In this document: in pieces, positions 676 through 19,737 of the stretch
Position numbering within the stretch: the first letter of the stretch is position 1
How the letters are laid out: each line of letters begins with the position of its first letter
Assembly: GCF_900066015.1 (NCBI RefSeq)
Contig: NZ_LN890656.1
Span: forward strand, 248,001 to 312,000
Source of the DNA: Candidatus Promineifilum breve
GTDB taxonomy: Bacteria > Chloroflexota > Anaerolineae > Promineifilales > Promineifilaceae
Direction: 5' to 3'
Length of the DNA: 64,000 bases
Notes under the pieces: model-generated
Database searches by the model: none
What the model was told of the DNA's origin: nothing
The model's input: the letters and a program-made list of their open reading frames with translations, nothing else
Position numbers and translations under genes: made by a program

Positions 676-1635
676 ATGCCGGGTGTGACAATCGGCCCTT
701 ATACCATTATCCAACCGCTGGGCAGCGGCGGTTTCAGCCAGGTTTACGCCGCCCAGCACCAGCAGGGGCAGCTGGTCGCCCTGAAGCTGCTCGACGCGAC
801 AGTGACGCAGACCGAGGAAGGGCGGCAGCGCTTTCTGCGCGAGGTGGTGGCCGCCCGCCGGCTGAACTATCGCCACGTGGTGCCGGTCTATGCCGCGGGC
901 ATCAGCGGCGGCCGGGCCTATCTGGCGATGCGGCTGATGCGCGGCGGCACGCTGGCCCAACGGCTGGCCCAGCGGCCCATCCTCAACGACGAGGCCGCGG
1001 CCCAGGTGATGCGCCACACGGCCCGCGCCCTCGACTATGCCCGGCGGCTGGGCATCGTCCACCGCGACGTGAAGCCGTCGAACATCTTCTATGATCACGA
1101 CCGCCTCGTCTGCCTGGGCGATTTCGGACTGGCCAAGGTGCGCGGGCTGGACACGGTGACCCAGTTCGGCCAGATCATCGGCTCGGTCTACTACATGGCC
1201 CCGGAGCAGGTGCGCGGCCTGCTCTATACCAATGAACTGTCCGACGTCTACTCGCTGGGGGTGGTGCTGTTCGAGATGCTGACCGGGCGCGTGCCGTTCG
1301 CCGGGCAGTCGCAGGCGAGTGTGCTCCACGCCATCGTCCACGCCGATCCGCCCCGGCCGCGGCGGATCAACGGCCGCATCACGCCCGAAGTGGAGGCGGT
1401 CATCCTGCGCGCGTTGAGCAAAGACCCCGCCCGGCGCTACGCCTCGGCCGGGCAGTTGGCCGCCGCCTATCAGAACGCGCTGCCGCGGCGGGTCTTTGCC
1501 GGCGCGGGCCAACCCGTCGGGCCGCGCATCGGCCAGGCCGTCGCCGCCCCCCGCGCCACCGAGCGGCCGGCGTTCTGGCTGGTGATCGTGGCCCTGGTGG
1601 CCTTTATTTTGTTGGCGGTCTATATGGCCGGTTAG
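676..1635 (+). CDS. Membrane-anchored Ser/Thr protein kinase (PknB-like)
   Basis: Eukaryotic-type protein kinase of 319 aa that phosphorylates Ser/Thr residues at the cytoplasmic face. Visible motifs are the Gly-rich loop GSGGFSQVY (16-24), catalytic Lys37 in VALK, HRDVKPSN (129-136), DFG (149-151), the APE motif (175-177) and the helix-F segment DVYSLGVVLFEMLTGR. A single C-terminal hydrophobic helix (about 297-317) follows the kinase domain. Only two residues lie beyond it, so there is no extracellular sensor domain, which is shorter than the usual PknB layout. The ATG follows a purine-rich stretch (aggaggccagggggga). It lies upstream of an FHA protein and a second kinase. The stop codon lies at the first unit of a heptamer repeat. 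Confidence 0.93.
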   Translation: MPGVTIGPYTIIQPLGSGGFSQVYAAQHQQGQLVALKLLDATVTQTEEGRQRFLREVVAARRLNYRHVVPVYAAGISGGRAYLAMRLMRGGTLAQRLAQRPILNDEAAAQVMRHTARALDYARRLGIVHRDVKPSNIFYDHDRLVCLGDFGLAKVRGLDTVTQFGQIIGSVYYMAPEQVRGLLYTNELSDVYSLGVVLFEMLTGRVPFAGQSQASVLHAIVHADPPRPRRINGRITPEVEAVILRALSKDPARRYASAGQLAAAYQNALPRRVFAGAGQPVGPRIGQAVAAPRATERPAFWLVIVALVAFILLAVYMAG

Positions 1636-1770
1636 TGGGTAGTGGACAGTGGGCAGTGGTCAGTGGGCCGCTATCGCTGTCGCAATCGCAATCGTTCTTC
1701 AGTCGTCAGTCGTCAGTGGTCAGTGGTCTTCATTCGTCATTCGTCATTCGTAATTCTTAATTCGTAATTG
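1636..1770 (+). repeat. Heptamer-phased intergenic repeats (GTGGGCA/GTCAGTG then CATTCGT/TAATTCG)
   Basis: Immediately after the kinase stop codon come imperfect 7-bp tandem units of GTGGGCA/GTCAGTG type. A second block of 7-bp units of the CATTCGT / AATTCGT type runs to the start of the FHA gene. The same unit types recur at 15836-15916, 45278-45346, 57052-57118 and 59450-59480. They resemble the short tandemly repeated sequences described in cyanobacteria; the function is unknown. Confidence 0.75.
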
Positions 1771-1773
1771 TCC

Positions 1774-2256
1774 ATGAACGATACAACCGGCATCTTTTTG
1801 TTTTTCATCCTGGTGAGCGGGATCGTGCTCATCCTGTTGCTGCTGACCAAGGACAAAGGCAGCGGTGTGCTCAAATTCGGCCGCGCCGAGTTGCGCATCG
1901 ACTTCGATAACGCCAAAGGCTGGGTGAAAAGCAGCCGCCAACCGCCCGGACGACCGCGGGCCGCCTGTTATCTGGCGGTGAAGGGCACGGATTGGACCTT
2001 CCCGCTGCCCCAGCGGCCGGTGCTTTTCGGCACCGGCCCCGAGTGCGAGGTGCGTCTGGCCGACCGGACGGCCGGCAGCCGGCAGGCCGTCATCTATTGG
2101 CAGGACGGGCGCTATAAAATCGCCAACCGGTCGAACAACCGCCGTTTCCAGACATGGGTGAATGACAACCACATCATCAACCACGACCAGAAACTAGGCG
2201 AGGGCAACACGATCCAAATGGGCCGCAACAGGTTTATCTTCCGCGACGAGCGCTAA
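1774..2256 (+). CDS. FHA domain protein with N-terminal membrane segment
   Basis: A 160-aa protein with one N-terminal transmembrane helix (TGIFLFFILVSGIVLILLLL, about residues 4-23), then a cytoplasmic forkhead-associated fold from about residue 80 (RPVLFGTGPECEVRL) through RQAVIYW, YKIANRSNNRRFQTWVN and the final GNTIQMGRNRFIF strand. FHA domains bind phosphothreonine peptides. Lying between two Ser/Thr kinase genes, it is a likely phospho-dependent partner or substrate of one of them. A TTG lies two codons upstream in frame, but ATG 1774 is preferred. No strong ribosome-binding site is visible, because the upstream DNA is repeat. Several canonical FHA residues (the SRxH motif) are replaced by SRQA, so phosphopeptide binding is likely but not certain. 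Confidence 0.85.
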   Translation: MNDTTGIFLFFILVSGIVLILLLLTKDKGSGVLKFGRAELRIDFDNAKGWVKSSRQPPGRPRAACYLAVKGTDWTFPLPQRPVLFGTGPECEVRLADRTAGSRQAVIYWQDGRYKIANRSNNRRFQTWVNDNHIINHDQKLGEGNTIQMGRNRFIFRDER

Positions 2257-2272
2257 AGGAGGCAAGGGCGAC

Positions 2273-3955
2273 ATGGCCCAACCGGATAACCTGATCGGGC
2301 TGCAAATCAACAACTTCGTCATTCGCCGCCATCTGGCGCGTGGCGGCATGGCCGACGTCTACGTGGCCGAGAACGTCCGCCTGCAGCGCGAGGTGGTGCT
2401 GAAGGTGCTGTTGGCGGTGCTGGTCGATAATCAGGCCCTGGTGGAGCGCTTCCGGCGCGAGGCGTTGTCGATGGCCCGGCTGCAACACGCCAACATCGTG
2501 CAGGTCTACGACACGGGGGACACGCCCGACGGCCGGCCGTTCATCGCCATGCAATACGTGCGCGGCGGCACGCTGGAAATGCTGCTGGATGAGCTGGAGC
2601 AAAAAGGGCAGGTGATGACCCCGGCCTTCGCCCTGGCCCTGGCCCGGCAGGTGGCCGCCGCGCTCAGCGCCGCCCATGCCGCCGGCATCATCCACCGCGA
2701 CCTGAAGCCCAGCAACATCCTGCTCGACGAGCAGCGCCGGCCGCTGCTGACCGATCTGGGCATCGCCTTCGTGCAGGACACGCAACGGCTGACGCGCACC
2801 GACACGTTCATCGGCACACCCCACTACATGGCCCCGGAACAGGCCAAGGGGGTGGCGCTGGACGCCCGCAGCGACATCTATTCGCTGGGGGTGGTGCTGT
2901 TCGAGATGCTGGCCGGGCGGCGGCCGTTTCCCGGCGATTCGCACTGGGCGCTCATCCACGCCCATACCAGCGTGCCCGCTCCGGCGCTGAGCAGCGTGCG
3001 GCCCGGTCTGCCGCGGGCCATCAATCAGGTCGTGGCCCGCTGTCTGGAGAAAGAGCCGGCCCGCCGCTACCAGACGGCGGCCGAACTGGCCGTGGCCCTC
3101 GACCGAGCGCTGGGCGAAGAGGGGCAGGCGGGCACGCTGACGGCCTCGGGCGAGTGGCAATGGCGACCGCGCCAATCGGGCGAGCTGTTCGTGGAGCGCA
3201 CCGGGCGGGTGCGGCCGGCCACCGCGGCCGGCAAGCGCCGGATGGGCTGGGGGCTGCCGCTGGGGTTATTGGTGTTGGGCGTCGTCGTGCTGATGGCCTG
3301 GTGGCTGTTGCGGCCGTCCCCGTCGCCCCCGGCCACGCCAACCGGGACGGCCCAATCCATCGCCGCCGCCGCAACCGGGTTGACGGAAACCGCGCCGGCG
3401 GATGCGCCGACCGACTCCGCGTCTACCTCGACCCCGGCGGTCACGGTTGCGCCGGCAACGGCCGCGCCCGTTGACGACCCGGCCACGGTCGCGCCGCCCA
3501 CCGCCACGCCGCCGGCCACATCCACCCCGGAACCGGCCGCGCCCGACGCCATCACCGCCCGCGTCACCAGCAACGTCTTTACCCGCGGCGGGCCGGGCCT
3601 GAGCTATATCCAACAAGGCGCTCTCAGCCGCGACGAGGTTGTGACCGTGTTGGGCAGCGATGGCGGCGGCGACTGGCTGGTGGTGCAGCCGGAACGGGGC
3701 GGGCCGGTGTGGGTGTCGGTCGGGTTCGTGGACTTCCTGTCCGGGGCGCTGACCGACGTGCCCGTGGCGGCCACCATCCCGCCGCCGCCCACGGCCACGC
3801 CGACCTTGACGCCGCCGCCGCCGAGCGCGCCGACCTCGCCGCCGGCCGGTGATGACGACGGCCCCAGCGACGGGCCGACCGCGCACACGCCCACGGCGAG
3901 CAATACGCCCTTCCGGCCGCCTGACCCGACGAACACGCCGTACACGCCACCCTAA
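2273..3955 (+). CDS. Transmembrane Ser/Thr protein kinase with extracellular SH3b domain
   Basis: A 560-aa PknB-type kinase. The catalytic domain covers about residues 15-280: the loop ARGGMADVYVAE, Lys44 in VVLK, HRDLKPSN near 141, DLG in place of DFG near 161, MAPEQ and DIYSLGVVLFEML. A single transmembrane helix lies at about 323-346. It is followed by a Thr/Pro/Ala-rich linker, a bacterial SH3-like domain (about 426-492, AITARVTSNVFTRGGPG to VWVSVGFVDFL) and a Pro/Thr tail. SH3b domains commonly bind peptidoglycan or peptides, so a cell-envelope sensor role is inferred. GGAGG precedes the ATG, which lies 16 bp after the FHA gene, consistent with one operon. DLG still keeps the metal-binding Asp, so activity is expected. 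Confidence 0.93.
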   Translation: MAQPDNLIGLQINNFVIRRHLARGGMADVYVAENVRLQREVVLKVLLAVLVDNQALVERFRREALSMARLQHANIVQVYDTGDTPDGRPFIAMQYVRGGTLEMLLDELEQKGQVMTPAFALALARQVAAALSAAHAAGIIHRDLKPSNILLDEQRRPLLTDLGIAFVQDTQRLTRTDTFIGTPHYMAPEQAKGVALDARSDIYSLGVVLFEMLAGRRPFPGDSHWALIHAHTSVPAPALSSVRPGLPRAINQVVARCLEKEPARRYQTAAELAVALDRALGEEGQAGTLTASGEWQWRPRQSGELFVERTGRVRPATAAGKRRMGWGLPLGLLVLGVVVLMAWWLLRPSPSPPATPTGTAQSIAAAATGLTETAPADAPTDSASTSTPAVTVAPATAAPVDDPATVAPPTATPPATSTPEPAAPDAITARVTSNVFTRGGPGLSYIQQGALSRDEVVTVLGSDGGGDWLVVQPERGGPVWVSVGFVDFLSGALTDVPVAATIPPPPTATPTLTPPPPSAPTSPPAGDDDGPSDGPTAHTPTASNTPFRPPDPTNTPYTPP

Positions 3956-3985: not shown

Positions 3986-5482
3986 ATGGCACTGTCATTC
4001 AAGCGGATCGGATTATTCCTGGCCCTGGCCGGCGGGCTGGGTTGGCTGTTGTGGCTGGGCACAGGCGCGGCCACCAGCCGCCCGGCGGCCGTCCCCTTTG
4101 TGGCCCTGGAGCCGTTCGTGAGCGATCTGGACCAGCCGGTCCACGTCGTCGGCAGCGGCGTGGCCGGCGATGGGCGGCTGTTCGTCGTGCAGCAGCGGGG
4201 CAAAATCCGGGTCGTCAACCCCAACGGCACGCTGCGGGCGGCGCCTTTTCTGGACATCAGCGAGCGCGTCGACCAGACCACCGGCCGCACCGGCCTGTTC
4301 GGGCTGGCCTTCCACCCCAATTACGCCGCCAACGGCACTTTCTTCGTCTACTATCTCCAGCGCGCCGGCGACGTGTTCACCGCCCGCCTGTCGCGCTTCC
4401 GGGTGACGGCCGACCCCAACGTGGCCGACCCGACCAGCGAGAACATCCTGCTGGCCGTGACCAAGGATCACGCCGGGCACAACGCCGGCGATCTGCTGTT
4501 TGGGCCGGATGGCTATCTCTATTGGCCGCTGGGCGACGGCGACAGTCGGGTCATCGGCCCCCGGCCGCAAGACCCGACGACCGTGCTGGGCAAGATCGTG
4601 CGTATCAACGTGGATGACCTGCCGAGCGAGGGAGCGGCCGACTGTAAAGGGTCGGGCAGCGGCGACTACTCCATCCCGCCGTCGAATCCGTTGGCCGGGT
4701 CGCCGGCGGCCTGCGACGAAATCTGGGCGTTCGGCCTGCGCAACCCGTGGCGGCTCAGCTTCGACCGGCAGACGGGCGGCCTCTACCTGACCGACGTGGG
4801 CGAGGATGCCTGGGACGAGTTGAACTATGCCGCGCCGGGGGCGGGCGGCGGCCGGAACTACGGCTGGCCGTGCTACGAGGGGGACGCCGTCTTCGAGGCC
4901 GCCCAATGGCCGGCGCGCGGCTGCGACGCGGCCACGCCCTTCACCTTGCCCATCCTCACCCAGGCCATCCACGTCAACAACGATTGCTCGATCATCGGCG
5001 GCTACGTCTACCGGGGGACGCGCTACCCGGCGCTGATTGGCCGCTACTTTATGACCGACTACTGCTCCGGCAATCTGCGCAGCCTGACGCGCGAGGGGGG
5101 CGAATGGGTCGTCACGCTCCACGACGCCCTGGCCCCGTTCGGCGCCGTCTCCTTCGGCCAGGGCAACGATGGCGAACTGTACGTGGTCAACCTGCTGGGC
5201 AACGAAATCCTGCATCTGGTGGGCGACGAAGAGGCCGCCACGGCCACCCCGACGGCGACCACGCCGCCCGGCGCGACCGCCACACCCACCACCACGCCGA
5301 CTACCACCCCCGACCCGACCGGAACCGTAACCGTGACGGCCACCGTGGCCCCTACGGCCACGCCGGTTTGGTCGCATAGGGGCTATCTACCGGCCGCGCT
5401 GGGCAGCCCGGCCGATGAGCCGCCGCCCATGCCGGCGGCCGGCCGCGGTGGCCCCACCGGCCACCAGGGAGGAAGAAGATGA
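3986..5482 (+). CDS. Exported PQQ-dependent sugar dehydrogenase-like protein (GSDH/sorbosone family)
   Basis: A 498-aa protein with an N-terminal signal or anchor segment (about 1-30) and a six-bladed propeller of the glucose/sorbosone dehydrogenase type (about 35-405). Signature stretches include GLFGLAFHPNYA, DLLFGPDGYLYWPLGDGDS, EIWAFGLRNPWRLSFD, DVGEDAWDELNY and NYGWPCYEG. Such enzymes oxidise aldoses outside the cytoplasm using PQQ and calcium; substrate and cofactor are not proven here. A Thr/Pro linker (about 415-455) leads to the hydrophobic motif YLPAAL and a short Pro/Gly tail. An AGGAG lies 8 nt before the ATG. The stop overlaps the next start (ATGA at 5479-5482), indicating translational coupling. 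Confidence 0.9.
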   Translation: MALSFKRIGLFLALAGGLGWLLWLGTGAATSRPAAVPFVALEPFVSDLDQPVHVVGSGVAGDGRLFVVQQRGKIRVVNPNGTLRAAPFLDISERVDQTTGRTGLFGLAFHPNYAANGTFFVYYLQRAGDVFTARLSRFRVTADPNVADPTSENILLAVTKDHAGHNAGDLLFGPDGYLYWPLGDGDSRVIGPRPQDPTTVLGKIVRINVDDLPSEGAADCKGSGSGDYSIPPSNPLAGSPAACDEIWAFGLRNPWRLSFDRQTGGLYLTDVGEDAWDELNYAAPGAGGGRNYGWPCYEGDAVFEAAQWPARGCDAATPFTLPILTQAIHVNNDCSIIGGYVYRGTRYPALIGRYFMTDYCSGNLRSLTREGGEWVVTLHDALAPFGAVSFGQGNDGELYVVNLLGNEILHLVGDEEAATATPTATTPPGATATPTTTPTTTPDPTGTVTVTATVAPTATPVWSHRGYLPAALGSPADEPPPMPAAGRGGPTGHQGGRR

Positions 5483-7572
5483 TGAAACCCCGTATGACGC
5501 CCATTGTTCGTTGGCTTGGGCCGGTTGTGCTGTTGCTGGTCATGGTCGCCCGGGCCGGTTCGGCCGCGCCCGAGGCGCCCCAGGCCCCGGCGGCGGTCAG
5601 CTTCATCTACTGGACCGACCAATCGACCGGCTCGGCCAACGGCGAGATCTGGCGCTCGAACCCCGACGGCACGGGGGCCGACGCGCCGCTGGTGACCGGC
5701 CTGACCAACCCGCGCGGCCTGGCCCTCGATGAGGCCAACAACCAGATGTATTGGGTCGATCGCGCCACCGACAAGCTACAATGGGCCCCGCTCGCCGGCG
5801 GCTCCGCGGTTAATTTCTGCAATGGTCTGTTCAGCCCCGACGATATGAAGCTCGACCTGGAATCGCGTTGGGTCTACTGGTCGGAGCCGGTCCAGAACCG
5901 CATCCGCCGCTCGCCGCTGACCGCCTGTAACCCGCAGACGGTGCTCGATGCCGACGATGGGTTGGGCGACGTGGTGGGCATCGCCCTCGACCTGGCTAAT
6001 AACCAGATCTACTGGACGGAATTCGGCGCGAAGCGGGTGCGCCGCGCCAATCTGGACGGCACGGGCGTGGTAACGCTGATCGAAACCGGGTTGGGCGGGC
6101 CGCTGGAGATCGCCCTCGATCTGGACGGGGCCGACAAGTACCTGTACATCACCGACAGCCCCAACAACACGCCGGGCTATGGCGGCCGGGTGCTGCGCGC
6201 CCCGCTGTCGGGGGGCAACATGACCCAGAACGGCCCCGAACTGGATAACCCGCGCGGCCTGGCCCTCGACCTGGCGGCGGGCCAACTCTACGTCATCGAC
6301 GCCGAGGCCAAGACCCTCAAGCGCTGGGACCTGGACGGCCAGAATGCCGTCACCCTGAAGTCGGGCGGGGTTACGCTGAATGACCCGCGCGCCGTGGCCC
6401 TGCGTTTCGGCGGCCAGACCTGCTACACCCTGAGCCGGCAACATACCGGCAACGGCAGCAACCCCACGGCCAATCCGCCCAACTCGACCGGCTGCCCGAA
6501 CGACCAGTACACCGAAAACGCCACGATCAGCGTGTCGGCCGTGCCCTCGGCCGGCTGGGCGGTCAGCGGTTGGAGCGGCACGATCAACAACAACAGCACC
6601 GGCCCGACCAACACGGTCGTCATGCCGGCCAATAACCACACGGTCATCGTCCACTATGACCAGCCGTGCTATATGCTGGATCGCCAGCACACCGGCCAGG
6701 GCAGCAACCCGACGGCCACGCCGGCCAACTCGACCGGCTGCCCGGCCGGCCAGTACGCGCCCGGCACGGTCATCACCCTGACCGCCGCGCCGGCCGCCAA
6801 CTGGATCGTCGATAGCTGGAGCGGCGCGGACAACGGGGCGGCGATTCTGGTGAACACGGTCACCATGCCCGACGGCCACCATACCGTGATTGTCAATTAC
6901 GTCTTCGATGACACGACCTGCTACACGCTGACCCGCCGGCACACCGGCCAGGGGGCCGACCCCATCGCCTCGCCGCCCAGTTCCAACGGCTGTGACACCC
7001 TCGGTCAATATAAGCAAGGGGCGGTCATCACGCTGACGGCCGATCCGGCCCCTAATTGGCGTGTGGACGGCTGGAGCGGCACAGACAACGACAACAGCCC
7101 GGCGACGATCAATACGGTCACCATGCAGACGGGCGACCGTACCGTGAGCGTCTTCTACGAAGTGACGGCACACTCATTGGCCCACATCCCGATGATCGTT
7201 GACATCCCCCCACCGCCGTGCTTCGCCGGGCCGAACGAGGTGGAAGACAACAATTCCTTCGCCACGGCCAACGGGCAGTTGTGCGCCGCCGGAGTCTTCA
7301 ACGGCCTGCCCCAAGACCGGCTGGATTTCTTCTCGTTCGATACGACGACCGCCGGCCACGTGGCGGTGACGGTCAGCGATCACCACGGCGGGGGGGTGCA
7401 GCTGCAATTGTGGCACAACGGGGTATCCATCGCCGACGACACCAATCAGAACGACGGTCTGAGCGTGGCGGTTCCCAACGCCGCGCCGGGCCGCTACTAC
7501 GTGCTGATCTACGCCGAGACGCCCAAACCGGGCGAGACGCGCGCCTATGCCATGCAGGTTGTCTGGCCCTAG
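5479..7572 (+). CDS. Secreted beta-propeller protein with three B-repeats and C-terminal PPC-like domain
   Basis: A 697-aa protein with a signal peptide (about 1-27). Residues about 35-310 form YWTD/NHL-like propeller repeats (NPRGLALDEANNQMYWVD, DLANNQIYWTE). Three repeats of about 80 aa follow, each opening CYxLxRxHTG and containing WSGT/WSGA, of the InlB B-repeat / Listeria-Bacteroides type. The last 120 residues (CFAGPNEVEDNNSFATANG onwards) resemble the bacterial pre-peptidase C-terminal (PPC) domain. No enzyme active site is visible, so an adhesive or binding role is inferred. GGAGG lies 6 nt before ATG 5479; ATG 5482 is an alternative. It is coupled by a 4-bp overlap to the dehydrogenase gene upstream. 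Confidence 0.88.
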   Translation: MMKPRMTPIVRWLGPVVLLLVMVARAGSAAPEAPQAPAAVSFIYWTDQSTGSANGEIWRSNPDGTGADAPLVTGLTNPRGLALDEANNQMYWVDRATDKLQWAPLAGGSAVNFCNGLFSPDDMKLDLESRWVYWSEPVQNRIRRSPLTACNPQTVLDADDGLGDVVGIALDLANNQIYWTEFGAKRVRRANLDGTGVVTLIETGLGGPLEIALDLDGADKYLYITDSPNNTPGYGGRVLRAPLSGGNMTQNGPELDNPRGLALDLAAGQLYVIDAEAKTLKRWDLDGQNAVTLKSGGVTLNDPRAVALRFGGQTCYTLSRQHTGNGSNPTANPPNSTGCPNDQYTENATISVSAVPSAGWAVSGWSGTINNNSTGPTNTVVMPANNHTVIVHYDQPCYMLDRQHTGQGSNPTATPANSTGCPAGQYAPGTVITLTAAPAANWIVDSWSGADNGAAILVNTVTMPDGHHTVIVNYVFDDTTCYTLTRRHTGQGADPIASPPSSNGCDTLGQYKQGAVITLTADPAPNWRVDGWSGTDNDNSPATINTVTMQTGDRTVSVFYEVTAHSLAHIPMIVDIPPPPCFAGPNEVEDNNSFATANGQLCAAGVFNGLPQDRLDFFSFDTTTAGHVAVTVSDHHGGGVQLQLWHNGVSIADDTNQNDGLSVAVPNAAPGRYYVLIYAETPKPGETRAYAMQVVWP

Positions 7573-7611
7573 GCGCGGCGGCGCGGCAAATTTTGAGGGG
7601 AGCTTATGAGT

Positions 7612-9288
7612 ATGAATCGATGGACGCGCGGCCTGGGGCTGGTGGGCTTGTTGGTTGGGCTGGTGGCGGGGGTGGGGGCGGCGGCCGGGCCGGACGAGCC
7701 GGCGGCGGCCCGGGCCAATGCCGGGTGGGAAGAGATGGGGGTGGGGTCGGCGTCGGGCGAGGGGATCAGTGACCAGAGTTTCCTGTCGCGCAATCCGGCG
7801 CTGGCCGTGGGGCCGGGCGGGCCGCTCGTTGCCTGGTGGGATAACAGTGCCAGCGATGGCGGTATCTACGTCCGGCGCTGGGACGGCGCGGCCTGGGTCA
7901 GACTGGACGACTCAACCGGCGACGACGACATCACCACCACCAGCACCGAATCGTTTACGCCGTCGATCGCTGTCGGCCCCGCTAATGCGCCCATCGTCGC
8001 CTGGGAAGAGCAACAGGTTGGCGAAATCTATGCCCGGCAGTGGAACGGTACGGCCTGGGTCGCGTTGCGCGGCCCGGCGGCCGATGGGGGCATCAGCGCC
8101 AACGCGGGCCAATCGCTGGAGCCGCAAGTGGCGATCACCCCGGCCGGGCCGATCATCGTCTGGCAGGACGACAGCCAGGGCAATTGGGAGATCTACGTCC
8201 GGCGCTGGGATGGGGCGGCCTGGGTCGAGATGGGCAGCGGCTCGGCCGGCGGCGGCGGCATCAGCAACAACAGCGGCGGTTCAGCCCATCCCGTGGTGGC
8301 CGTCGCGCCGGACGGGACGCCCTTTATCGCCTGGAGCGATGGGTCGAACACCCTGTATTCCGATATCTTCCTGCGACGCTGGGACGGCGCGGCCTGGGTC
8401 GAAGTGGGCGGCTCGGCCAGCGGCGGCGGCGTCAGCCAGAACGGGGGGTCATGGGCGCCGGCGCTGGACATCGACCCATCCGGCGCGCCGATTGTCGCCT
8501 ACGTGCGCGGCGTCATGAACGATGGCGACATCCACGCCCGGCGCTGGGACGGCGCGGTCTGGGTGGATATGGGCGAGGGGGTCAGTAACAACGACGGCCA
8601 GTCTTGGTGGCCGGTATTGGCGGTCAATCAAGTAGGCGCGCCGATCATCGCCTGGATGGACGACAGCAGCGGCCAGTTCCAGATCTACGTCCGGCGCTGG
8701 GACGGTACGGCCTGGGTTGAGTTCGACAGCGGCTCGGCCACGGCCGGCGGCATCAGCGAGACGCCGGATTACAGCGGCCAACCGTCGTTGGCGATCGCGG
8801 CCGATGGCCGGGCGATTGTGGCCTGGCACCGCTCCAATAGTGAGATGTTCGATGACAACATCTACGTGCGGCAGAGTCCGGCGCCGGCGATGCACCTGTT
8901 CTTCATCCCGACCATCCTGCATCAACCCTTCCTCTGCTTCGCCGGCCCCGACGAGCAGGAAGACAACGACGACCAGGCGCAGGCCAACGGCCCGCTGTGC
9001 AACGGCCAATCCTATCGCGGCCGGCCGGACGACAACTACGACGTGTTCTCCTTCGTTATGGTTGCCGCCGGGCCGGTCACCATTGAACTCAACGACTTCG
9101 CCGCCGGCGGTGGGCAACTGGGGCTGTTGTCGGCCGACTTCGTGCCCATCGCCTACGACTTGACGCCGGGCGACGGCTTCCGCATCAGCCGGGCCAATGA
9201 GCCGGCCGGGGGGTATTACATCGTTGTCCATACTCCCGCGCCGGACGTTGGGGCGGGGCAATATGCGCTGCGGGCGACATGGGAATAG
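7612..9288 (+). CDS. Secreted WDGxAWV-repeat protein with C-terminal PPC-like domain
   Basis: About 558 aa: an N-terminal signal peptide, then about eight repeats of 50-60 residues with the core IYVRRWDGAAWVEMG...GGISxN...PxxAVxPxGPxxAW. These look like beta-propeller blades. After the motif FIPTIL comes the PPC-like domain CFAGPDEQEDNDDQ to the end. ATG 7612 sits 9 nt after GGGGAG; ATG 7606 is in frame but has only 3 nt spacing. The repeat type is shared with the gene at 11728. The last 250 bp are almost the same as the end of the next gene, suggesting recent duplication or gene conversion. The function is unknown; surface binding is plausible. Confidence 0.87.
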   Translation: MNRWTRGLGLVGLLVGLVAGVGAAAGPDEPAAARANAGWEEMGVGSASGEGISDQSFLSRNPALAVGPGGPLVAWWDNSASDGGIYVRRWDGAAWVRLDDSTGDDDITTTSTESFTPSIAVGPANAPIVAWEEQQVGEIYARQWNGTAWVALRGPAADGGISANAGQSLEPQVAITPAGPIIVWQDDSQGNWEIYVRRWDGAAWVEMGSGSAGGGGISNNSGGSAHPVVAVAPDGTPFIAWSDGSNTLYSDIFLRRWDGAAWVEVGGSASGGGVSQNGGSWAPALDIDPSGAPIVAYVRGVMNDGDIHARRWDGAVWVDMGEGVSNNDGQSWWPVLAVNQVGAPIIAWMDDSSGQFQIYVRRWDGTAWVEFDSGSATAGGISETPDYSGQPSLAIAADGRAIVAWHRSNSEMFDDNIYVRQSPAPAMHLFFIPTILHQPFLCFAGPDEQEDNDDQAQANGPLCNGQSYRGRPDDNYDVFSFVMVAAGPVTIELNDFAAGGGQLGLLSADFVPIAYDLTPGDGFRISRANEPAGGYYIVVHTPAPDVGAGQYALRATWE

Positions 9289-9311
9289 GGTCTGGGGCCA
9301 GGTTTGAAGGG

Positions 9312-9335
9312 CCAGGGAGGAGCGTTCTTCCCTGG
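9312..9335. other. Hairpin with 7-bp stem between secreted-protein genes
   Basis: CCAGGGA and TCCCTGG enclose a GAGCGTTC core. The reverse complement of the hairpin at 14035-14058 is the same element with paired changes (C-G to T-A) in the stem. No poly-U tract follows, so it is not a classical intrinsic terminator. Confidence 0.6.
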
Positions 9336-9418
9336 AACCGGCAATCGAATACCCATACAGAGGGCGGCCACCGTTGGCGCGGTACAATGGGCCACCATGG
9401 CCGGCGCGAGGAGTGATA

Positions 9419-11710
9419 ATGGACGAATCCAACCAATACCCCAATGAATCTGCAAGGCGACGCCGCTGGCTGGCGAGCCTGCTGATGCGCCGCGACAGCC
9501 GGGTGTGGCCCCGTTATGCTCGTCTCATCGAGCGACTGGGGCGACGGCCGCGCGGCCGGCGGCGGCCGTGGCAGCGACGGCTGGTTGCCACCCTGACCGG
9601 CGCGGGGCTGTTGCTGGCGCTGGCCGGCTTCGGCGCGTGGGCGGCCCCGGACAATGTGATCTCGGTGGTCGATGGCGAGGTCGGTATCGCCAACAACGGC
9701 AAGTGCTCGCTCCACGAGGCCATCATTACCGCCAACGATACGTATGACGGCCGGCCAATTTCCGATTGCGCCGCCGGCAACTACAACGGCGCCGATACCA
9801 TCATCCTGCCGGCCGGCGGCCTGTTCACCATCACGGGGGCTGGCAATTCCAACCCAAAATATGGCGACACGGGCCTGCCCTGGATCGAGAGCGCGGTCAT
9901 CATCGAGGGCAACGGGGCGACCATCCAGCGGCCATTTTCGGCCGGCGCTTTCCGCCTGCTGGCCGTCAGCCCCAGCGGGGATATTAACCTGAAAAACGTG
10001 ACGCTATCGGGCGGCTATGCCTACCTGAATAGCCCCTATATCTATGAGGGGAACTATTATCACTACGCCGGGATGGGTGGCGGCATTCTCAACCTGGGCG
10101 CACTGACCCTGAGCGGGGTCACAGTCAGGGACAACATCGCCTACTCTTATTACGACTCGGGCATGGGCGGGGGAATCGCCAATCTGGACACGCTGGTGAT
10201 CTCCGCCAGTAATATTCTGAACAACACCGCCACCGGCGCCTATGGTGGGGTTGGCGGTGGCATCTGGAACGACGATAGCCTGACTATCCTGAATAGCACC
10301 GTATCGGGCAACCGGGCCACGGGCGAGTATACGTCCGGCGGGGGCATCGACAACCGAGGCTATCTTGAAATCGATGGGACGCAACTGATCTATAACGCGG
10401 CTACGGGTTATACCGCCTGGGGCGGGGGCATCGATAATTCGTATTACGCGATCATCACCACCAGCCTCATCGCCGGCAATTCCGCCGGGATCGGTTCGGA
10501 TTTGTATGGTTTCGCCTATGGCGGCGGTATCAACAACGGCTATGTGTTAGAGATGACGAACACGACGGTCAGCGGTAACGTCGTAAGGAAAGGCGCCGGC
10601 GGAGGTATTAACAATCTATATCAAGTCACGATCACCAATAGCACGATAACCGGCAATGCCAACGACGGCATCGACGCCGGTTGCACGAGTGCCGACGATG
10701 AACATAAAACAATTGTGCGCCGTTCACTCGTATCGGGCAACGCCGGCCACAATATCGACAGTCAAGACCCGCTCGTCAACTATGCCGGTTGCCAGCCGGT
10801 CGTGACCCTCGATAGCCACAACCTGATCGGTAATTTCGGCGACCCGGCTACCCGGGGCGTGACGCCGGGCTTCTCCGACATTGTGCCGCCCGGCGGCTTG
10901 GGGTCAATTCTCGGCGTGCTGGGCGCGCACGGCGGGCCGACCTGGAGCCACGCCCTGCCGGCGGGCAGCCCGGCCATCGACCGCGCGCCCAGCAGCGTGT
11001 GTAGCGCGGCCCCGGTGGGTGGCGTCGATCAGCGCGGCCAGCCGCGCAACCGCAACGGCGACGGCGCTTCGTCGAACAACGAATGCGACATCGGCGCTTA
11101 CGAATTCCAGCCCCAAGTCCTGCCCGATACCTCAACCCCCACATCGACGGTTACCCCGACGCGAACGTTGACAGCCACGCCAACGCCAACCCGAACACGC
11201 ACCCCAGCAGGTACCGCCACGGCTACATCGACTGGAACGTTGACATCGGCTACACCAACAGCAACCGTCACGCCAACACCCACCGGCACGCGGCCGTCCG
11301 TGGCTGCCTTCCGCGCTCTTGTCCCCCTGGCGCTCTATGTGCCGCCGACCTGCTTTGCCGGCCCCAACGAGGAGGACCCCAACAACCTCCAGACCGAAGC
11401 CAACGGCCCGCTCTGTAACGGCCAGACCTACCACGGCCGGCCGGAGGATAACTACGACGTGTTCTACTTCGATATGGCCGCCGCCGGGCCGATTGCCGTT
11501 GAACTGAACGACATCGCCGTGGCCGGGGGGCAGTTGGGGCTGTTGTCGGCCGGCTTCACGCCCATCGCCTACGACGTGACGCCGGGCGACGGCTTCCGCA
11601 TCAGCCGGGCCAATGAGCCGGCCGGGCGGTATTACATCGTTGTCCACACCCCCGCGCCGGACGGTGGGGCGGGGCCGTATGCGCTGCGGGTGACGTTTGC
11701 CACACGGTAG
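9419..11710 (+). CDS. Secreted CSLREA-type right-handed beta-helix protein with PPC-like domain
   Basis: ATG 9419 is chosen because GCGAGGAG lies just upstream; it gives 763 aa and drops 15 codons of the longer frame. A long Arg-rich cytoplasmic N-region (about 1-55) precedes a signal helix (about 57-77). The motif KCSLHEAIITAND (about 90-105) matches the CSLREA motif of secreted beta-helix proteins. Residues about 110-510 are Gly/Asn-rich parallel beta-helix rungs with many GGGIxN and NSTVSGN units, ending in the PAIDRA...DQRG...CDIGAYEF motif. A Thr/Pro linker, the motif LVPLALYVP and a PPC-like domain (CFAGPNEEDPNN onwards) complete it. Beta-helices usually bind or cleave polysaccharide, but no lyase residues can be assigned. 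Confidence 0.88.
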   Translation: MDESNQYPNESARRRRWLASLLMRRDSRVWPRYARLIERLGRRPRGRRRPWQRRLVATLTGAGLLLALAGFGAWAAPDNVISVVDGEVGIANNGKCSLHEAIITANDTYDGRPISDCAAGNYNGADTIILPAGGLFTITGAGNSNPKYGDTGLPWIESAVIIEGNGATIQRPFSAGAFRLLAVSPSGDINLKNVTLSGGYAYLNSPYIYEGNYYHYAGMGGGILNLGALTLSGVTVRDNIAYSYYDSGMGGGIANLDTLVISASNILNNTATGAYGGVGGGIWNDDSLTILNSTVSGNRATGEYTSGGGIDNRGYLEIDGTQLIYNAATGYTAWGGGIDNSYYAIITTSLIAGNSAGIGSDLYGFAYGGGINNGYVLEMTNTTVSGNVVRKGAGGGINNLYQVTITNSTITGNANDGIDAGCTSADDEHKTIVRRSLVSGNAGHNIDSQDPLVNYAGCQPVVTLDSHNLIGNFGDPATRGVTPGFSDIVPPGGLGSILGVLGAHGGPTWSHALPAGSPAIDRAPSSVCSAAPVGGVDQRGQPRNRNGDGASSNNECDIGAYEFQPQVLPDTSTPTSTVTPTRTLTATPTPTRTRTPAGTATATSTGTLTSATPTATVTPTPTGTRPSVAAFRALVPLALYVPPTCFAGPNEEDPNNLQTEANGPLCNGQTYHGRPEDNYDVFYFDMAAAGPIAVELNDIAVAGGQLGLLSAGFTPIAYDVTPGDGFRISRANEPAGRYYIVVHTPAPDGGAGPYALRVTFATR

Positions 11711-11727
11711 GCTGAGGTATGAGAACG

Positions 11728-14010
11728 ATGACACAATTCATGCGCTTTTTGTTGTTTGTTTTTCTGCTGAGTGGGTTGGTGGTGGGGGTAGGAGTGGCGG
11801 CCGGCCTGCCTGGTGATTCGATGGTCAATGCCGGCTGGGAAGAGTTGGGCGCCGGCTCGGCTACCGGTGGCGGCATCAGTGATAACGACGGCTTGTCCTA
11901 CGCTCCCGCGCTGGCTATCGGGCCGGACGGGCCAGTCATTGCCTGGACAGATGGCAGCAATGGCGACCATGAGATCTACGTCCGGCGCTGGGACGGCGCG
12001 GCCTGGGTCGAGATTGGTCCCGGCTCCGCCTCCGGCGGCGGCATCAGCGCCAATGATGGTCTATCTCAAATTCCATCAGTGGCCGCTGGGCCGGACGGGC
12101 CAATCGTCGCCTGGGAAGACATGAGCAGCGGCAACATCGAGATCTACGTCCGGCGCTGGGACGGGTCGGCCTGGGTCGAGATGGGCGACTCGGCCTCCGG
12201 CGGCGGCATCAGCCATATGATTAGCTGGTCAGGCGATCCCGCGCTGGCTGTCGGGTCGGAGGGGCCAGTCGTCGCCTGGAGCCAGAATACCGGCGGTGAG
12301 GACTCCGAGATCTACGTCCGTCGCTGGGATGGCGCGGCCTGGGTCGAGATGGGCGGCTCGGCCTCCGGCGGCGGCATCAGCCATATGCCCGGCAGGTCCG
12401 GAGATCCCGCGCTGGCAGTTGGGTCGGATGGGCCGGTCGTCGCCTGGAGCCAGGAAACCGACGGCGATGACCCCGAGATCTACGTTCGGCGCTGGGATGG
12501 CGCGGACTGGGTCGAGATGGGGGCCGGTTCGGCTTCCGGCGGTGGCATCAGCGACAATGACAGTGGGTCATTGCACCCCTCGCTGGCCGTCGGGCCTGAC
12601 GGGCCGATTGTCGCCTGGGAAGACTATGACGACGGTGACGACGGGGAAATCTACGTGCGGGGCTGGGACGGGTCGGCCTGGGTCGAGATGGGCGGTTCCG
12701 CTTCCGGAGGCGGTATCAGCGACAATGACGGCTGGTCGGAATCCACGACGCTGGCCGTTGGGCCGGACGGCCCCATCGTCGCCTGGCATTATATAAGCGA
12801 CGACAATGTGGAAATCTACGCCCGGCGCTGGGATGGGTCGGCCTGGGTTGGGATGAACGGCTCGGCCTCCGGCGGCGGCATCAGCGACAATGACATCATG
12901 TCCCTTGATCCGTCGCTGGCCGTGGGACCGTACGGGCCGATCATCGCCTGGCACGATTACAGCGACGGCGACAGTGAAATCTACGTCCGCGCCTTCCTGG
13001 AGTGCCATGCCCTGGCGCTCGACCACACCGGCAACGGCAGCGACCCCGACCCCGGCCTGGACCACTCGATCGGCTGCGGCCTGGATCAATACCTGGCCGG
13101 GGATTTGATCACGCTGACCGCCAATCCAGCCCCCGGCTGGCACGTGGCCGGCTGGAGCGGCACGGACAATGATGCCAGCAAGGCGCTGACGAATACGGTT
13201 ACCATGCCGACCGGTGACCACACCGTCTCTGTGGCCTACGAGGAAAATCCGTTCTATTTGGCCTTCATGGCGATGGTAACCAACATCCCGCCGCCCTGCT
13301 TCCCCGGCCCCAACGAGCGGGAACCCAATAACGGCTTTACCGAAGCCGTGGCCAATGGGCATTTTTGCCTGGACGTTGAATTCCTGGGGCGGCCGACCGA
13401 CGAGTGGGACGTGTTCGCCTTCGACGTAAGCGCGGCCGACACGCTGACCGTGCGCGTCGAGAACCATCGCGGGCAGAACGCGCTGTTGCAGCTGCACAAT
13501 AGCGCCCAGAATTTGCTGGAGTACGATAACAATTCAGCCGACGGCTTCCAGGTGAGCCGCGCCGTGACGCCGGGGCGCTACTTTGTGTCGCTCTTTGTCA
13601 AAAACCCCAACGTTAACGAGACGGAGCAGTATAGGCTGAAGGGGATGCTGTTGTGCACCTCCTTCCCCAACGAGCAGGAGCCGAACAATACTCAGTCCGG
13701 AGCCAATGGCCCGCTCTGCAACAGCCGCGCCTCCACTGGCTTACCCACCGACGCCTTCGACATCTTCTACTTCGACGTAGGCCAAACGGCCGACGTGACT
13801 GCGACCCTGGACAACCACGCCGGCAGCGGCGTCCAGTTGGCCCTGCACTATCAGGCCATCACCGCCAACCCGCTCGACGTGGATTACATTGCCGCCGACG
13901 GCTTCCACGTCAGCGCCGCCAACGCCGCGCCGGGCCGCTATTACGTCGTCATCTACGCCGCGACGCCGGGGCCGGCCACGCCGTATACGCTGCGGGCGGA
14001 ATGGGAGTAG
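11728..14010 (+). CDS. Secreted WDGxAWV-repeat protein with B-repeat and two PPC-like domains
   Basis: About 760 aa. ATG 11728 fits the upstream GAGG better than ATG 11719. A signal peptide is followed by seven or more repeats with the core EIYVRRWDGSAWVEMGxSASGGGISxN, nearly identical to one another at DNA level. One B-repeat (CHALALDHTGNGSDP...WSGTDND) and two consecutive PPC-like domains (CFPGPNEREPNNGF and CTSFPNEQEPNNTQ) follow. It combines modules of the genes at 5479 and 7612, so the cluster looks like a set of shuffled modules. The repeat number may vary between strains. No catalytic motif is visible; surface attachment is a reasonable guess. Confidence 0.87.
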   Translation: MTQFMRFLLFVFLLSGLVVGVGVAAGLPGDSMVNAGWEELGAGSATGGGISDNDGLSYAPALAIGPDGPVIAWTDGSNGDHEIYVRRWDGAAWVEIGPGSASGGGISANDGLSQIPSVAAGPDGPIVAWEDMSSGNIEIYVRRWDGSAWVEMGDSASGGGISHMISWSGDPALAVGSEGPVVAWSQNTGGEDSEIYVRRWDGAAWVEMGGSASGGGISHMPGRSGDPALAVGSDGPVVAWSQETDGDDPEIYVRRWDGADWVEMGAGSASGGGISDNDSGSLHPSLAVGPDGPIVAWEDYDDGDDGEIYVRGWDGSAWVEMGGSASGGGISDNDGWSESTTLAVGPDGPIVAWHYISDDNVEIYARRWDGSAWVGMNGSASGGGISDNDIMSLDPSLAVGPYGPIIAWHDYSDGDSEIYVRAFLECHALALDHTGNGSDPDPGLDHSIGCGLDQYLAGDLITLTANPAPGWHVAGWSGTDNDASKALTNTVTMPTGDHTVSVAYEENPFYLAFMAMVTNIPPPCFPGPNEREPNNGFTEAVANGHFCLDVEFLGRPTDEWDVFAFDVSAADTLTVRVENHRGQNALLQLHNSAQNLLEYDNNSADGFQVSRAVTPGRYFVSLFVKNPNVNETEQYRLKGMLLCTSFPNEQEPNNTQSGANGPLCNSRASTGLPTDAFDIFYFDVGQTADVTATLDNHAGSGVQLALHYQAITANPLDVDYIAADGFHVSAANAAPGRYYVVIYAATPGPATPYTLRAEWE

Positions 14011-15380: not shown

Positions 15381-15565
15381 GCAAGCTCCCGGTGGCGATT
15401 ATACCTGACCGGTGGGCGATCTTTCGATCCTCGATGGCATGACAGACTGTGGCCGCCCACCTGTCAGGCAGGTCTGGGGTAGCCGGTTAGACAATTATCT
15501 AACCGAGAGTTTAGCCGATTAACGGCCAAAAGGCGAACTGGATAAAACGAGATAGGCCGGATGCG
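15381..15565. promoter_or_regulatory. Upstream region of MFS gene with a 22-bp operator-like palindrome
   Basis: At 15484-15505 there is a perfect inverted repeat with arms CGGTTAGA and TCTAACCG around CAATTA. It is about 105 bp before the MFS start, a common position for a dimeric repressor. A weaker hairpin around CCACCTG...CAGG lies at about 15459-15476. No regulator gene is adjacent. Confidence 0.4.
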
Positions 15566-15707
15566 CCGATGGGTTTAGGCGATGGGTTCAGGCGATGGGT
15601 TCAGGCGATGGGTTCAGGCGATGGGTTCAGGCGATGGGTTCAGGCGATGGGTTCAGGCGATGGGTTCAGGCGACGGGTCAGCCGATTGGTTCAGCCGATG
15701 GGTTCAA
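15566..15707. repeat. 13-bp tandem repeat array (GCGATGGGTTCAG), about 11 units
   Basis: Near-perfect direct repeats of 13 bp; units at the left and right ends are degenerate (TTTAG, CGACGGGTCAG, CGATTGGTTCAG). Any frame repeats every 39 bp, so an apparent small ORF here encodes a 13-aa periodic peptide. I do not regard it as a gene. Confidence 0.85.
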
Positions 15708-15822
15708 ACCCATCGCTGCTACACAAAACCCGGCTGAAGCCGGTTAAAGAAATCGCGCCTCTCTTCAACCGGCTTTAGCCGGGTTTCGTGTAGCTGCGGC
15801 GGGTTTGAACCCGCCGTGAACC
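15698..15822. repeat. REP-like palindrome cluster
   Basis: Contains GATGGGTTCAAACCCATC, an inverted pair of CCGGCTGAAGCCGG / CCGGCTTTAGCCGG hairpins flanked by CTACACAAAA and TTTCGTGTAG, and GGCGGGTTTGAACCCGCC. The same hairpin types recur at 20931-20992, 35792-36220 and 36770-36990. Confidence 0.85.
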
Positions 15823-18578: not shown

Positions 18579-18920
18579 ATGAAACCGCGTCAGGTGACAT
18601 TGTCGGCGGCGCAGGTGGCGGAGTTGCAGGCCGTACGAGACCATGCCCCTGTGCCGTACTTGCGAGAACGAGCGGCGGCGATCCTGAAGGTGGTCGAAGG
18701 ACGGTCGGTCAGACAAGTGGCGCTGCATGGGCTGTACCGGCGGCGAGGGGAACGGACGGTGGCGGCGTGGCTCAACCGCTACCTGGCCGAGGGCGTGGCC
18801 GGGCTGGAGATTCGTCCAGGGCGGGGGCGCAAGCCGGCTTTTTCCCCCTCTGACGGCGACGGAGGCCGGCGAGGCCGTCGCCCATCTGCTGCACCAGTCG
18901 CCCCGCCAGTACGGGATTGA
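18579..18920 (+). CDS. IS630 transposase, N-terminal frame (DNA-binding part), copy 1
   Basis: 113 aa by its own frame, of which the first 86 or so are transposase: helix-turn-helix sequence with LRERAAAILKVVEGRSVRQVA and a second helical region GERTVAAWLNRYLAEGVAGL, a homeodomain-like DNA-binding region for the inverted ends. GGAGG lies 6 nt before the ATG. The frame leaves the family homology at the T5C5 run (18839-18848); a +1 shift there joins it to the DDE frame and gives a product of about 365 aa, the usual IS630 length. A TATACT -10 box lies at 18543-18548. Confidence 0.85.
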   Translation: MKPRQVTLSAAQVAELQAVRDHAPVPYLRERAAAILKVVEGRSVRQVALHGLYRRRGERTVAAWLNRYLAEGVAGLEIRPGRGRKPAFSPSDGDGGRRGRRPSAAPVAPPVRD

Positions 18921-19677
18921 CGTCACCCGCTGGCGACTGGCCGACGTGGGTCAGGTGCTGAGTTGGTTGACCAGGCGCAGCCTGCCCGGCATCTACAAGG
19001 TGCTCAAACGGCTGGGGTTCAGTCGCAAGCAGGCGCAAGCCTTCATCCGCAGCCCAGACACCGCTTATGCGCTCAAATGGCGGGCTATCCTGGCCGCTTA
19101 TCAGGACGCTGTTGAGCACCCGGAGCAGGCGGTCTTGTTGTTCGGGGATGAACTGACCTACTGGCGTCGTCCAGCGGTACGGGCCGTGCACCAACGGCGC
19201 GGACAGAAGCAGCGTCGCGTGGTTAACCGGCCAGGGGCTAACACCCAGACTCGCATCGTCGCCGTCGTCAACGCCTGTACCGGCCAGGTCACCTATCGTC
19301 AGCGGAGTCGCGTCGGGCGCTTCGAGTTGGTCGCCTTCTATGAACAGCTGCGTCAGGATTATCCCGCCGTTCCCCGGCTGTACCTCGTCCTGGATAACTG
19401 GCCCACGCACAAGCATCCGCTCGTCTTGGAAGCGGCTCAGCACCACGCCCTGCGTTTGCTCTTCCTGCCGACCTATGCTTCCTGGCTCAATCCCATCGAG
19501 AAGCTCTGGCGCTGGTTGCGGCAGGATGTGCTCCATTGCCATCCCTTCGCCGACGACCTCGACCACCTCCGCCAGGCGGTCACCCGTTGGCTCGACCGCT
19601 TCCGTTCCGGCTCGCGCCACTTGCTGTTCTTCATCGGCCTGCTCTCGCGCGACGACCTAAACCAATATGGAGATTAA
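18727..19677 (+). CDS. IS630 transposase, DDE catalytic frame, copy 1
   Basis: The catalytic half of the transposase. After the frame junction near 18840 it reads through a helical linker to LLFGDELTYW (first Asp), YLVLDNWPTHKH (second Asp) and NPIEKLWRW (Glu). There are 34 residues between the second Asp and the Glu, the DD34E signature of the IS630/Tc1-mariner superfamily. The first part of this frame (before about 18838) overlaps the N-terminal frame and is probably not translated alone. The element appears intact apart from the frame change, which may be programmed; mobility is therefore plausible. Confidence 0.85.
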   Translation: MGCTGGEGNGRWRRGSTATWPRAWPGWRFVQGGGASRLFPPLTATEAGEAVAHLLHQSPRQYGIDVTRWRLADVGQVLSWLTRRSLPGIYKVLKRLGFSRKQAQAFIRSPDTAYALKWRAILAAYQDAVEHPEQAVLLFGDELTYWRRPAVRAVHQRRGQKQRRVVNRPGANTQTRIVAVVNACTGQVTYRQRSRVGRFELVAFYEQLRQDYPAVPRLYLVLDNWPTHKHPLVLEAAQHHALRLLFLPTYASWLNPIEKLWRWLRQDVLHCHPFADDLDHLRQAVTRWLDRFRSGSRHLLFFIGLLSRDDLNQYGD

Positions 19678-19737
19678 TTTGTTAATGTCCTATAACGCAC
19701 TTGGTGTATCAGCGGTGGGTTTTAGGACATTAACAAA

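Follow-up and report, generated by a model that had tools for sequence, protein, structure and literature searches.

What do four unlike genes standing side by side in Candidatus Promineifilum breve have in common, and what does it mean that they lie just downstream of a run of protein kinase genes? The locus is part of a stretch of 64,000 nucleotides (the window; contig NZ_LN890656.1, positions 248,001 to 312,000, here G000:C2:248001-312000) from a host genome of 5.03 Mb in three contigs. It comprises the co-directional, neighbouring genes A (5479-7572), B (7606-9288), C (9374 or 9419 to 11710) and D (11719-14010), all on the forward strand. The sequence-only reading of this DNA had described four neighbouring genes that mix B-repeats, WDG repeats and PPC-like domains, and had proposed that gene conversion and module exchange act on them together. 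The mixture was confirmed with Pfam and with profiles built from the window: a C-terminal domain, called the tail below, is present in all four genes, WDG repeats in two of them (B and D) and B-repeats in two (A and D). Our reading, to which we give a probability of about one half, is that the genes encode four modular exported proteins with variable heads and a common docking tail, which would sense or bind ligands near membrane kinases.

One tail and several heads

The tail is a PPC/collagen-binding-like domain, as judged from sequence comparison. When a profile was built from 11 tails, it hit the collagen-binding domains of eight distinct clostridial collagenase chain sequences, with E values from 1.2e-22 to 2.1e-8. 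Columns E10, N14, D36 and D39 are invariant in the 11 tails and E12 and N15 nearly so, and these acidic and asparagine columns line up with the ColG/ColH-type chains. In PPC domains calcium is bound by acidic and asparagine residues ahead of the sandwich, to which these columns may correspond. In the Pfam scan PF04151 (PPC; gathering score 25.9) scores 44.5 bits in gene D and 17.1 bits, below the cut-off, in gene A.

The heads differ from gene to gene. Gene A encodes a YWTD (LDL-receptor class B) propeller (PF00058, E 2.9e-10) followed by three InlB B-repeats (6421-7164; PF18998, E 3.8e-26 over three stretches, 91.3 bits against a cut-off of 23.6) and one tail at 7210-7569, found by profile and tail alignment. 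Gene B consists of seven WDG repeats (7720-8871) and one tail (8926-9285). Gene D has seven WDG repeats as well (11830-12990), followed by one B-repeat (13003-13245; PF18998, E 6.3e-12, 45.7 bits, also found by profile) and a tandem pair of tails (13288-14007). Gene C carries a beta-helix-like part, a Pro/Thr linker and one tail (11342-11707), with no B-repeat and no WDG repeat by Pfam or the window-built profiles; the Pfam scan likewise gave no PF18998 match in B. Nothing in gene C matches Pfam above cut-off, and the naming of its head as a putative beta-helix of the CSLREA type is tentative; the gene was read from its open reading frame, and the head has matches elsewhere in the genome.

The WDG repeat corresponds to one blade of a propeller, and the seven repeats in B and D, the model of B and the fold searches, whose lists are headed by propellers, agree on a seven-bladed beta-propeller. 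The AlphaFold2 model of B, made from an alignment of 10 rows, shows successive four-stranded blades (mean predicted local distance difference test score 77.8, predicted template modelling score 0.70). Its best fold match in the VIA list is the CylK propeller (PDB 7ron; Z 37.2, 337 residues, root-mean-square deviation 2.7, 9% identity), and the next matches (Z 26-29) include sialidase-like enzymes, integrin alpha chains and PLL lectins; propeller matches fill this list, which barely probes the tail part. By sequence the WDG propeller matched no PDB chain at E 0.01. It is rare, with matches at E 1e-20 in 3 of 400 genomes of the phylum, the own genome included, and relatives at 21 loci in a species-wide collection, several of them apparently from other phyla.

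Blades were counted in the 20 open reading frames with at least six detected repeats, of which 12 have seven blades, five have 14, and one each has 13, 8 and 6, the last sitting at a contig end. Four others were left out of the count (L077 with five, L082 with three, L078 with two and L079 with one), L077 and L082 being cut by contig ends. A freely variable number of WDG repeats was thus ruled out, since the counts are mostly the 7 or 14 that a closed fold demands. The repeat number in relatives, which the sequence-only reading had proposed as a check, does vary for the B-repeats: the A-like genes have three in the window, six at L191 and three at L192. As a separate observation, 14-blade WDG proteins of a Schekmanbacteria genome that have no tail also lie near Ser/Thr-kinase-like genes (L068:9245-16609 and L069:9281-13570).

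A short hydrophobic stretch precedes the tail in most proteins (for example YLPAVLNNY, FLPVVLNNY and FIPTILHQP). In the window it was read from the sequence as an 'IPMIV' box in A (7177-7209), 'FIPTIL' in B (8893-8928) and 'VPLAL' in C (11309-11341). The pattern LPxhh occurs in 25 of 38 tail genes compared with 4.3 in shuffles of the same stretches, the base being 43 tail genes, of which those at L200, L206, L210, L211 and L214 were dropped because the loci are duplicates or near-duplicates. The box was first suspected by eye and the pattern written after the stretches had been seen, so these counts are post hoc; the pattern also misses variants, IPMIVDIPP being one. Several tail-less proteins end in a similar box (the C-termini of L126, L128, L119, L104 and L103). 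As a genome-wide C-terminal signal the box found no support: in a 464-kb sample scanned with a crude gene finder it was found in 3 of 78 predicted secreted genes, with 2.3 expected from shuffles.

In the proposed mechanism each protein would present a variable binding head, either a WDG or YWTD beta-propeller or a beta-helix, with B-repeats as spacers in two of the four. The common C-terminal module would be the LPxhh box followed by the PPC/collagen-binding-like domain. The hydrophobic N-termini of A to D indicate that the proteins are most likely exported.

Kinase genes beside tail genes

The tail alignment was searched across the family and matched 42 times, in 26 of 52 genomes; these matches were grouped into 35 loci. 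L028, the weak sixth tail of the own genome, fell below the threshold of that search and was added as a 36th locus; L064 and L200, which are one contig, were counted once, and all 36 loci were scanned. A kinase was called when a match to our own profile of seven kinases (E 1e-12) lay within 5 kb of the tail gene. By this measure a Ser/Thr-kinase-like gene is found at 22 of the 36 loci, in genomes of 10 genera (the window, L024, L025, L026, L028, L083, L191, L193, L199, L201, L202, L204-L209, L211, L214, L215, L217 and L218), compared with one of 32 control regions of 17-20 kb in which any kinase was counted (p 2.6e-7). The result holds when the tail proteins are grouped by similarity, with a kinase in 15 of 24 groups (p 1.0e-6 against the same controls). 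The gap between the kinase and tail genes, taken between open reading frames read stop to stop, is below 150 bp at 15 of the 22 loci.

A matched control was drawn from 27 tail-less modular genes of the own genome (12 beta-helix-like, 7 with B-repeats, 7 with PF04151 and 1 with WDG repeats). With the same kinase profile one of them, a beta-helix gene at 4.9 kb, lies within 5 kb of a kinase; with Pfam kinases at E 1e-15, a threshold that can miss degenerate kinases, the count is 0 of 27. For comparison, 3.1% of the own genome lies within 5 kb of a Pfam kinase at E 1e-15. We propose these tail genes as a kinase-associated tail set, defined by a kinase within 5 kb (22/36 versus 1/32 and 1/27). That relatives of the tail are often encoded beside membrane protein kinases hints at an undescribed surface-sensing set.

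In the window the kinases form the end of an array. Eight of the 22 own-genome PF00069 matches at E 1e-15 are in one 24-kb array (C2:227169-251076), which ends in the window (676-3955) just upstream of the cluster. Its last members, both on the forward strand, are a Ser/Thr kinase with a terminal membrane helix (676-1635; PF00069, E 5.5e-48) and a Ser/Thr kinase with a membrane helix and a Pro/Thr-rich C-terminal part (2273-3955; PF00069, E 8.1e-45). In the latter the catalytic lysine and HRD are intact, DLG replaces DFG, and a hydrophobic helix follows past residue 350. A glucose/sorbosone dehydrogenase-like gene (3986-5482, forward strand; PF07995, E 1.9e-42), whose membership in the cluster is uncertain, comes next.

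Several points weigh against the reading of a common tail docking near kinases. At 14 of the 36 tail loci the scanned flank lacks a kinase (L064, L084, L085, L192, L194-L198, L203, L210, L212, L213 and L216), and at seven of these (L085, L195, L203, L210, L212, L213 and L216) one flank is shorter than 600 bp. The control regions are few, 20 of the 32 being contiguous stretches of one genome, the own one, and 12 having been hand-picked from four relatives on contigs with a tail locus. The dehydrogenase-like gene parts the kinases from the cluster in the window, which counts as positive only because the distance was measured from gene A (1.5 kb, one gene between). At some loci the kinase and tail genes point the same way and at others they converge, which means that they are not always one transcript, and adjacency is not interaction. 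The tails of B and C gave no PF04151 match at E 0.1 in the Pfam scan. Lastly, the tree of tails that bears on their history (see below) has moderate support, and its fuller 16-row version is less resolved.

It is also possible, as a thought that we entertain with some doubt, that these are ordinary surface or matrix proteins, adhesin-like or sugar-binding, in which the PPC tail is stabilising and the kinases lie near only because surface genes share islands. The propellers with the fold of B include lectins and sialidases, and in a secreted collagenase the C-terminal segment, which includes a PPC domain, is reported to bind collagen (PMC6168687); the 14 loci lacking a kinase fit this explanation too. 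However, the matched control shows that other modular genes of the own genome are rarely near kinases, and the adjacency of tail genes recurs behind unrelated heads in 10 genera and mostly at the short gaps noted above. The reading of a docking tail is the more likely one: the tail would serve as one uniform docking module, by which interchangeable heads are kept at the cell surface close to kinases, and the heads would sense or bind external ligands.

Silent-site divergence and the probable copying of tails

How did one tail come to stand behind unrelated heads? Gene C is the clearest case. Its beta-helix-like part has 18 matching stretches in the own genome besides itself (19 in all), which were merged by hand into 12 genes. 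At E 0.001 or better, a protein search of the own genome with the B tail found six places. Five lie in the cluster, and none of the six coincides with the 12 other genes that have the head of C. Since the head of C is dispersed without the tail and its tail groups with that of B, module exchange is supported, with C combining a dispersed head and a local tail. Other combinations are found in relatives. In a sister species (G003) the tail follows a PD40-type propeller and a B-repeat in one protein and WDG repeats and a B-repeat in another; further heads carrying the tail include EPTP, SBBP, PD40 and FG-GAP propellers, cadherin, lamin-tail, DUF11 and Calx-beta domains. The set thus may have grown by pasting of the tail behind unrelated heads.

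The sequence-only reading had called the last 250 bp of B and C nearly the same, which is too strong, although the pair does stand apart from the other tails. The two are 86% identical over 300 bp (8934-9233 versus 11350-11649); over the whole tail the identity is 83% for nucleotides and 74% for protein, and it fades at the domain edges. The nine remaining tail pairs in the window are 34-42% identical in protein. At fourfold sites the B and C tails differ at 6/50 (0.12) and the other nine pairs at 91/199 pooled (0.46; single pairs range from 6/20 to 16/22), where full saturation expected from base composition is 0.60. A Fisher p of 7e-6 for this comparison is a guide only, as the pairs share sequences. 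Outside the tail B and C are not homologous, so their silent divergence has no homologous flank with which it could be compared. B and D are strongly diverged in both their tails (6/20 and 9/22 fourfold) and their propellers (0.46).

A single, fairly recent tail copying event would explain the low silent divergence between B and C. Relative to the nearest G003 tail, fourfold differences are 16/38 for B and 15/42 for C, and in a 12-row tail tree, which leaves out four long rows, B and C form a pair (86/87, not starred) within a clade that also includes the G003 tail (87/99, not starred). The B-C copy therefore probably postdates the divergence from the G003 tail, and C would be a beta-helix gene that received the tail type of B after the split from the nearest sampled sister-species tail. 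The B-C identity is higher at the 3' side, with 3 silent changes in the 46 same-residue codons after codon 65 and 11 in the 43 before, a split picked after viewing the data. The longest unchanged codon run exceeds that in shuffles (p 0.012 over all codons and 0.014 over same-residue codons). This 5' clustering of differences, which is slight, allows partial conversion and does not require it.

Apart from the B-C pair, only one tail pair looks recently copied. Two tails of G003 (L024), which lie 4.4 kb from each other, share a tract of 301 identical bp (287-587 versus 4687-4987), ten mismatches crowd into 34 bp just 5' of the identical tract (209-242), and the identity drops to background before 157 and after 587. 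The mismatches are clustered when all codons are taken (p 5e-5) and not significantly so for silent changes alone (2/114 codons changed, p 0.14). The contig has a SPAdes-type name, an assembly type able to collapse near-identical copies, and the first tail copy is at its end. The tract is at most suggestive of recent conversion or recopying.

Fourfold sites of the WDG blades differ at 197/480 (0.41) within D, 127/302 (0.42) within B and 400/874 (0.46) between B and D, values similar to that of the nine other tail pairs and clearly higher than that of B and C; the lowest single blade pair, in D, has 5/19. Blades of one gene are barely closer to each other than to those of the other gene. There is thus no sign of homogenisation at DNA level, and this candidate was rejected on the silent sites, at which divergence between blades is strong, if still below saturation. 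In protein, the blades of D have a mean identity of 0.66 within the gene, compared with 0.52 to blades of other genes at the same position and 0.51 at other positions. Propellers made by repeated blade amplification are known to give such a pattern (PMC9218822), and in this D resembles the repetitive propellers described there. Unlike them, the blades here are diverged at silent sites, so that any amplification would be old, their counts are mostly 7 or 14, and B has no within-gene excess (0.45, 0.45 and 0.44 for the same three comparisons).

It is unlikely, then, that gene conversion continually homogenises the family during module exchange and keeps it diverse and uniform at once. The B-C pair, with its low silent divergence and long unchanged run, and the G003 pair speak for such a process, but one tail duplication accounts for the former, the silent changes and the contig type weaken the latter, and silent divergence is high among the blades and in the other tail pairs. 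What stands of the earlier proposal is module exchange, while ongoing homogenisation is mostly unsupported and low synonymous differences between tails of the window are confined to B and C, the other nine pairs being high. Under the docking-tail reading, tails would now and then be recopied between neighbours, while the blades and the other tails evolve with no DNA-level homogenisation.

Synteny of the cluster was not seen in sister genomes: relatives of its MFS neighbour do not share a contig with the tail genes there, although the contigs in question are short. A second, larger B-repeat group without the tail is present in the own genome (G000:C1:1687824-1717185, open reading frames up to 1668 aa), with no direct repeat of at least 150 bp within either of the two stretches searched (C1:1687-1717 kb). 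In the window, a tandem array of a 13-bp unit (CGATGGGTTCAGG) at 15554-15708 lies upstream of an MFS-like gene. Two near-identical transposase-like open reading frames of 316 aa each, which differ near the C-terminus, face in opposite orientation at 18727-19677 (+) and 19738-20688 (-), within 18579-20688.

The adjacent kinases and related systems

The kinases beside tail genes share features that bear on the docking proposal. PF00069 is above cut-off in the nearest kinases that were scanned with Pfam, except at L217 (29.0 versus 31.7), and the calls at L191, L206, L211 and L214 rest on our seven-kinase profile. Among the 18 Pfam-scanned loci, the kinase beside the tail gene contains SH3_3 at eight (L024, L025, L026, L028, L083, L193, L208 and L218) and LysM at three (L204, L207 and L209). 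A strong hydrophobic helix follows the kinase domain in most adjacent kinases. The catalytic lysine and HRD are kept in 12 of the 22 nearest kinases, the window gene with its DLG among them, and catalytic motifs are degenerate in the other 10 (L028, L201, L202, L204, L207, L208, L209, L215, L217 and L218), where the starts of the L028, L202 and L218 kinases are cut off and their lysine is unseen. The sole positive control region has two kinases, one of which is also degenerate.

One degenerate type recurs beside tail genes, at L201:13784-15634, L202:4759-6651, L204:13606-15375, L207:9137-11020, L208:1380-3278, L209:11381-13018 and L215:1912-3504. In it the catalytic Lys is replaced by Glu or another residue (VFLEV, AVIEV), HRDLKPEN by HHDLRPEN-like and DFG by DLGIP-like sequences, giving the motifs V-x-L-E-V, H-[HY]-D-L-R-P-E-N and D-L-G-[IV]-P. 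These kinases are possibly a pseudokinase family of their own.

The tail would thus mark a set of proteins found across the family, whose genes often neighbour those of membrane Ser/Thr kinases or pseudokinases, some of these kinases having SH3 or LysM domains. Docking on the outer part of the kinase and signalling through it are what adjacency and domain types most likely point to. A fuller version, which we put forward tentatively, is that filamentous Chloroflexota have an undescribed plug-in surface-sensing system, in which the exchangeable heads of exported proteins, among them propellers, beta-helices and cadherins, would be docked by the LP-box and PPC tail on the outer part of the adjacent kinase (often with SH3 or LysM), and up to 10 of the 22 partners would be degenerate, mostly of the one recurrent pseudokinase type. 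That the kinases are instead scaffolds for the export or anchoring of the tail protein, whose head would then sense no ligand, is improbable, since the degeneracy of K, HRD or DFG in 10 of the 22 would suit it but the lysine and HRD are retained in the rest and several heads are typical binding folds.

How does the docking-tail reading relate to known systems? The tail is like the PPC/collagen-binding domain of clostridial ColG/ColH in that the match covers most of the domain and the E-x-E-x-N-N and D..D columns are conserved, and the tandem copies in D are like those of the collagenase chain 5iku. Unlike in ColG/ColH, the tails here are on propellers and a beta-helix-like part with no peptidase, and the PF04151 cut-off is reached by D and not by A, B or C. 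The propeller of B shares its fold with CylK at 9% identity, and a shared fold alone shows no function. In Mycobacterium tuberculosis, the PknD-type kinases are Ser/Thr kinases with an extracellular beta-propeller. The idea of a kinase with an extracytoplasmic propeller is common to both, but here the propeller is a separate protein encoded beside the kinase gene, it has a PPC-like tail, and other folds can replace it. The PknD type has kinase, membrane helix and propeller on one chain; in the window, L024 and L025 the propeller and the kinase are encoded by separate genes. Literature on Chloroflexi kinase-propeller neighbourhoods, SH3/LysM kinases, Chloroflexi pseudokinases and Promineifilum kinases gave no tail-kinase association in titles and the opening of abstracts, a scope outside of which most subscription papers fall.

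The ligands sensed by bacterial Ser/Thr kinases are largely an open matter, which the Chloroflexota papers found do not take up in their titles or abstract openings. If the tail marks the outer partners of particular kinases, such partners could be listed from sequence alone and tested pairwise. Additionally, the cluster shows how a bacterial surface protein set may grow, with one tail placed behind unrelated heads and not by wholesale gene conversion.

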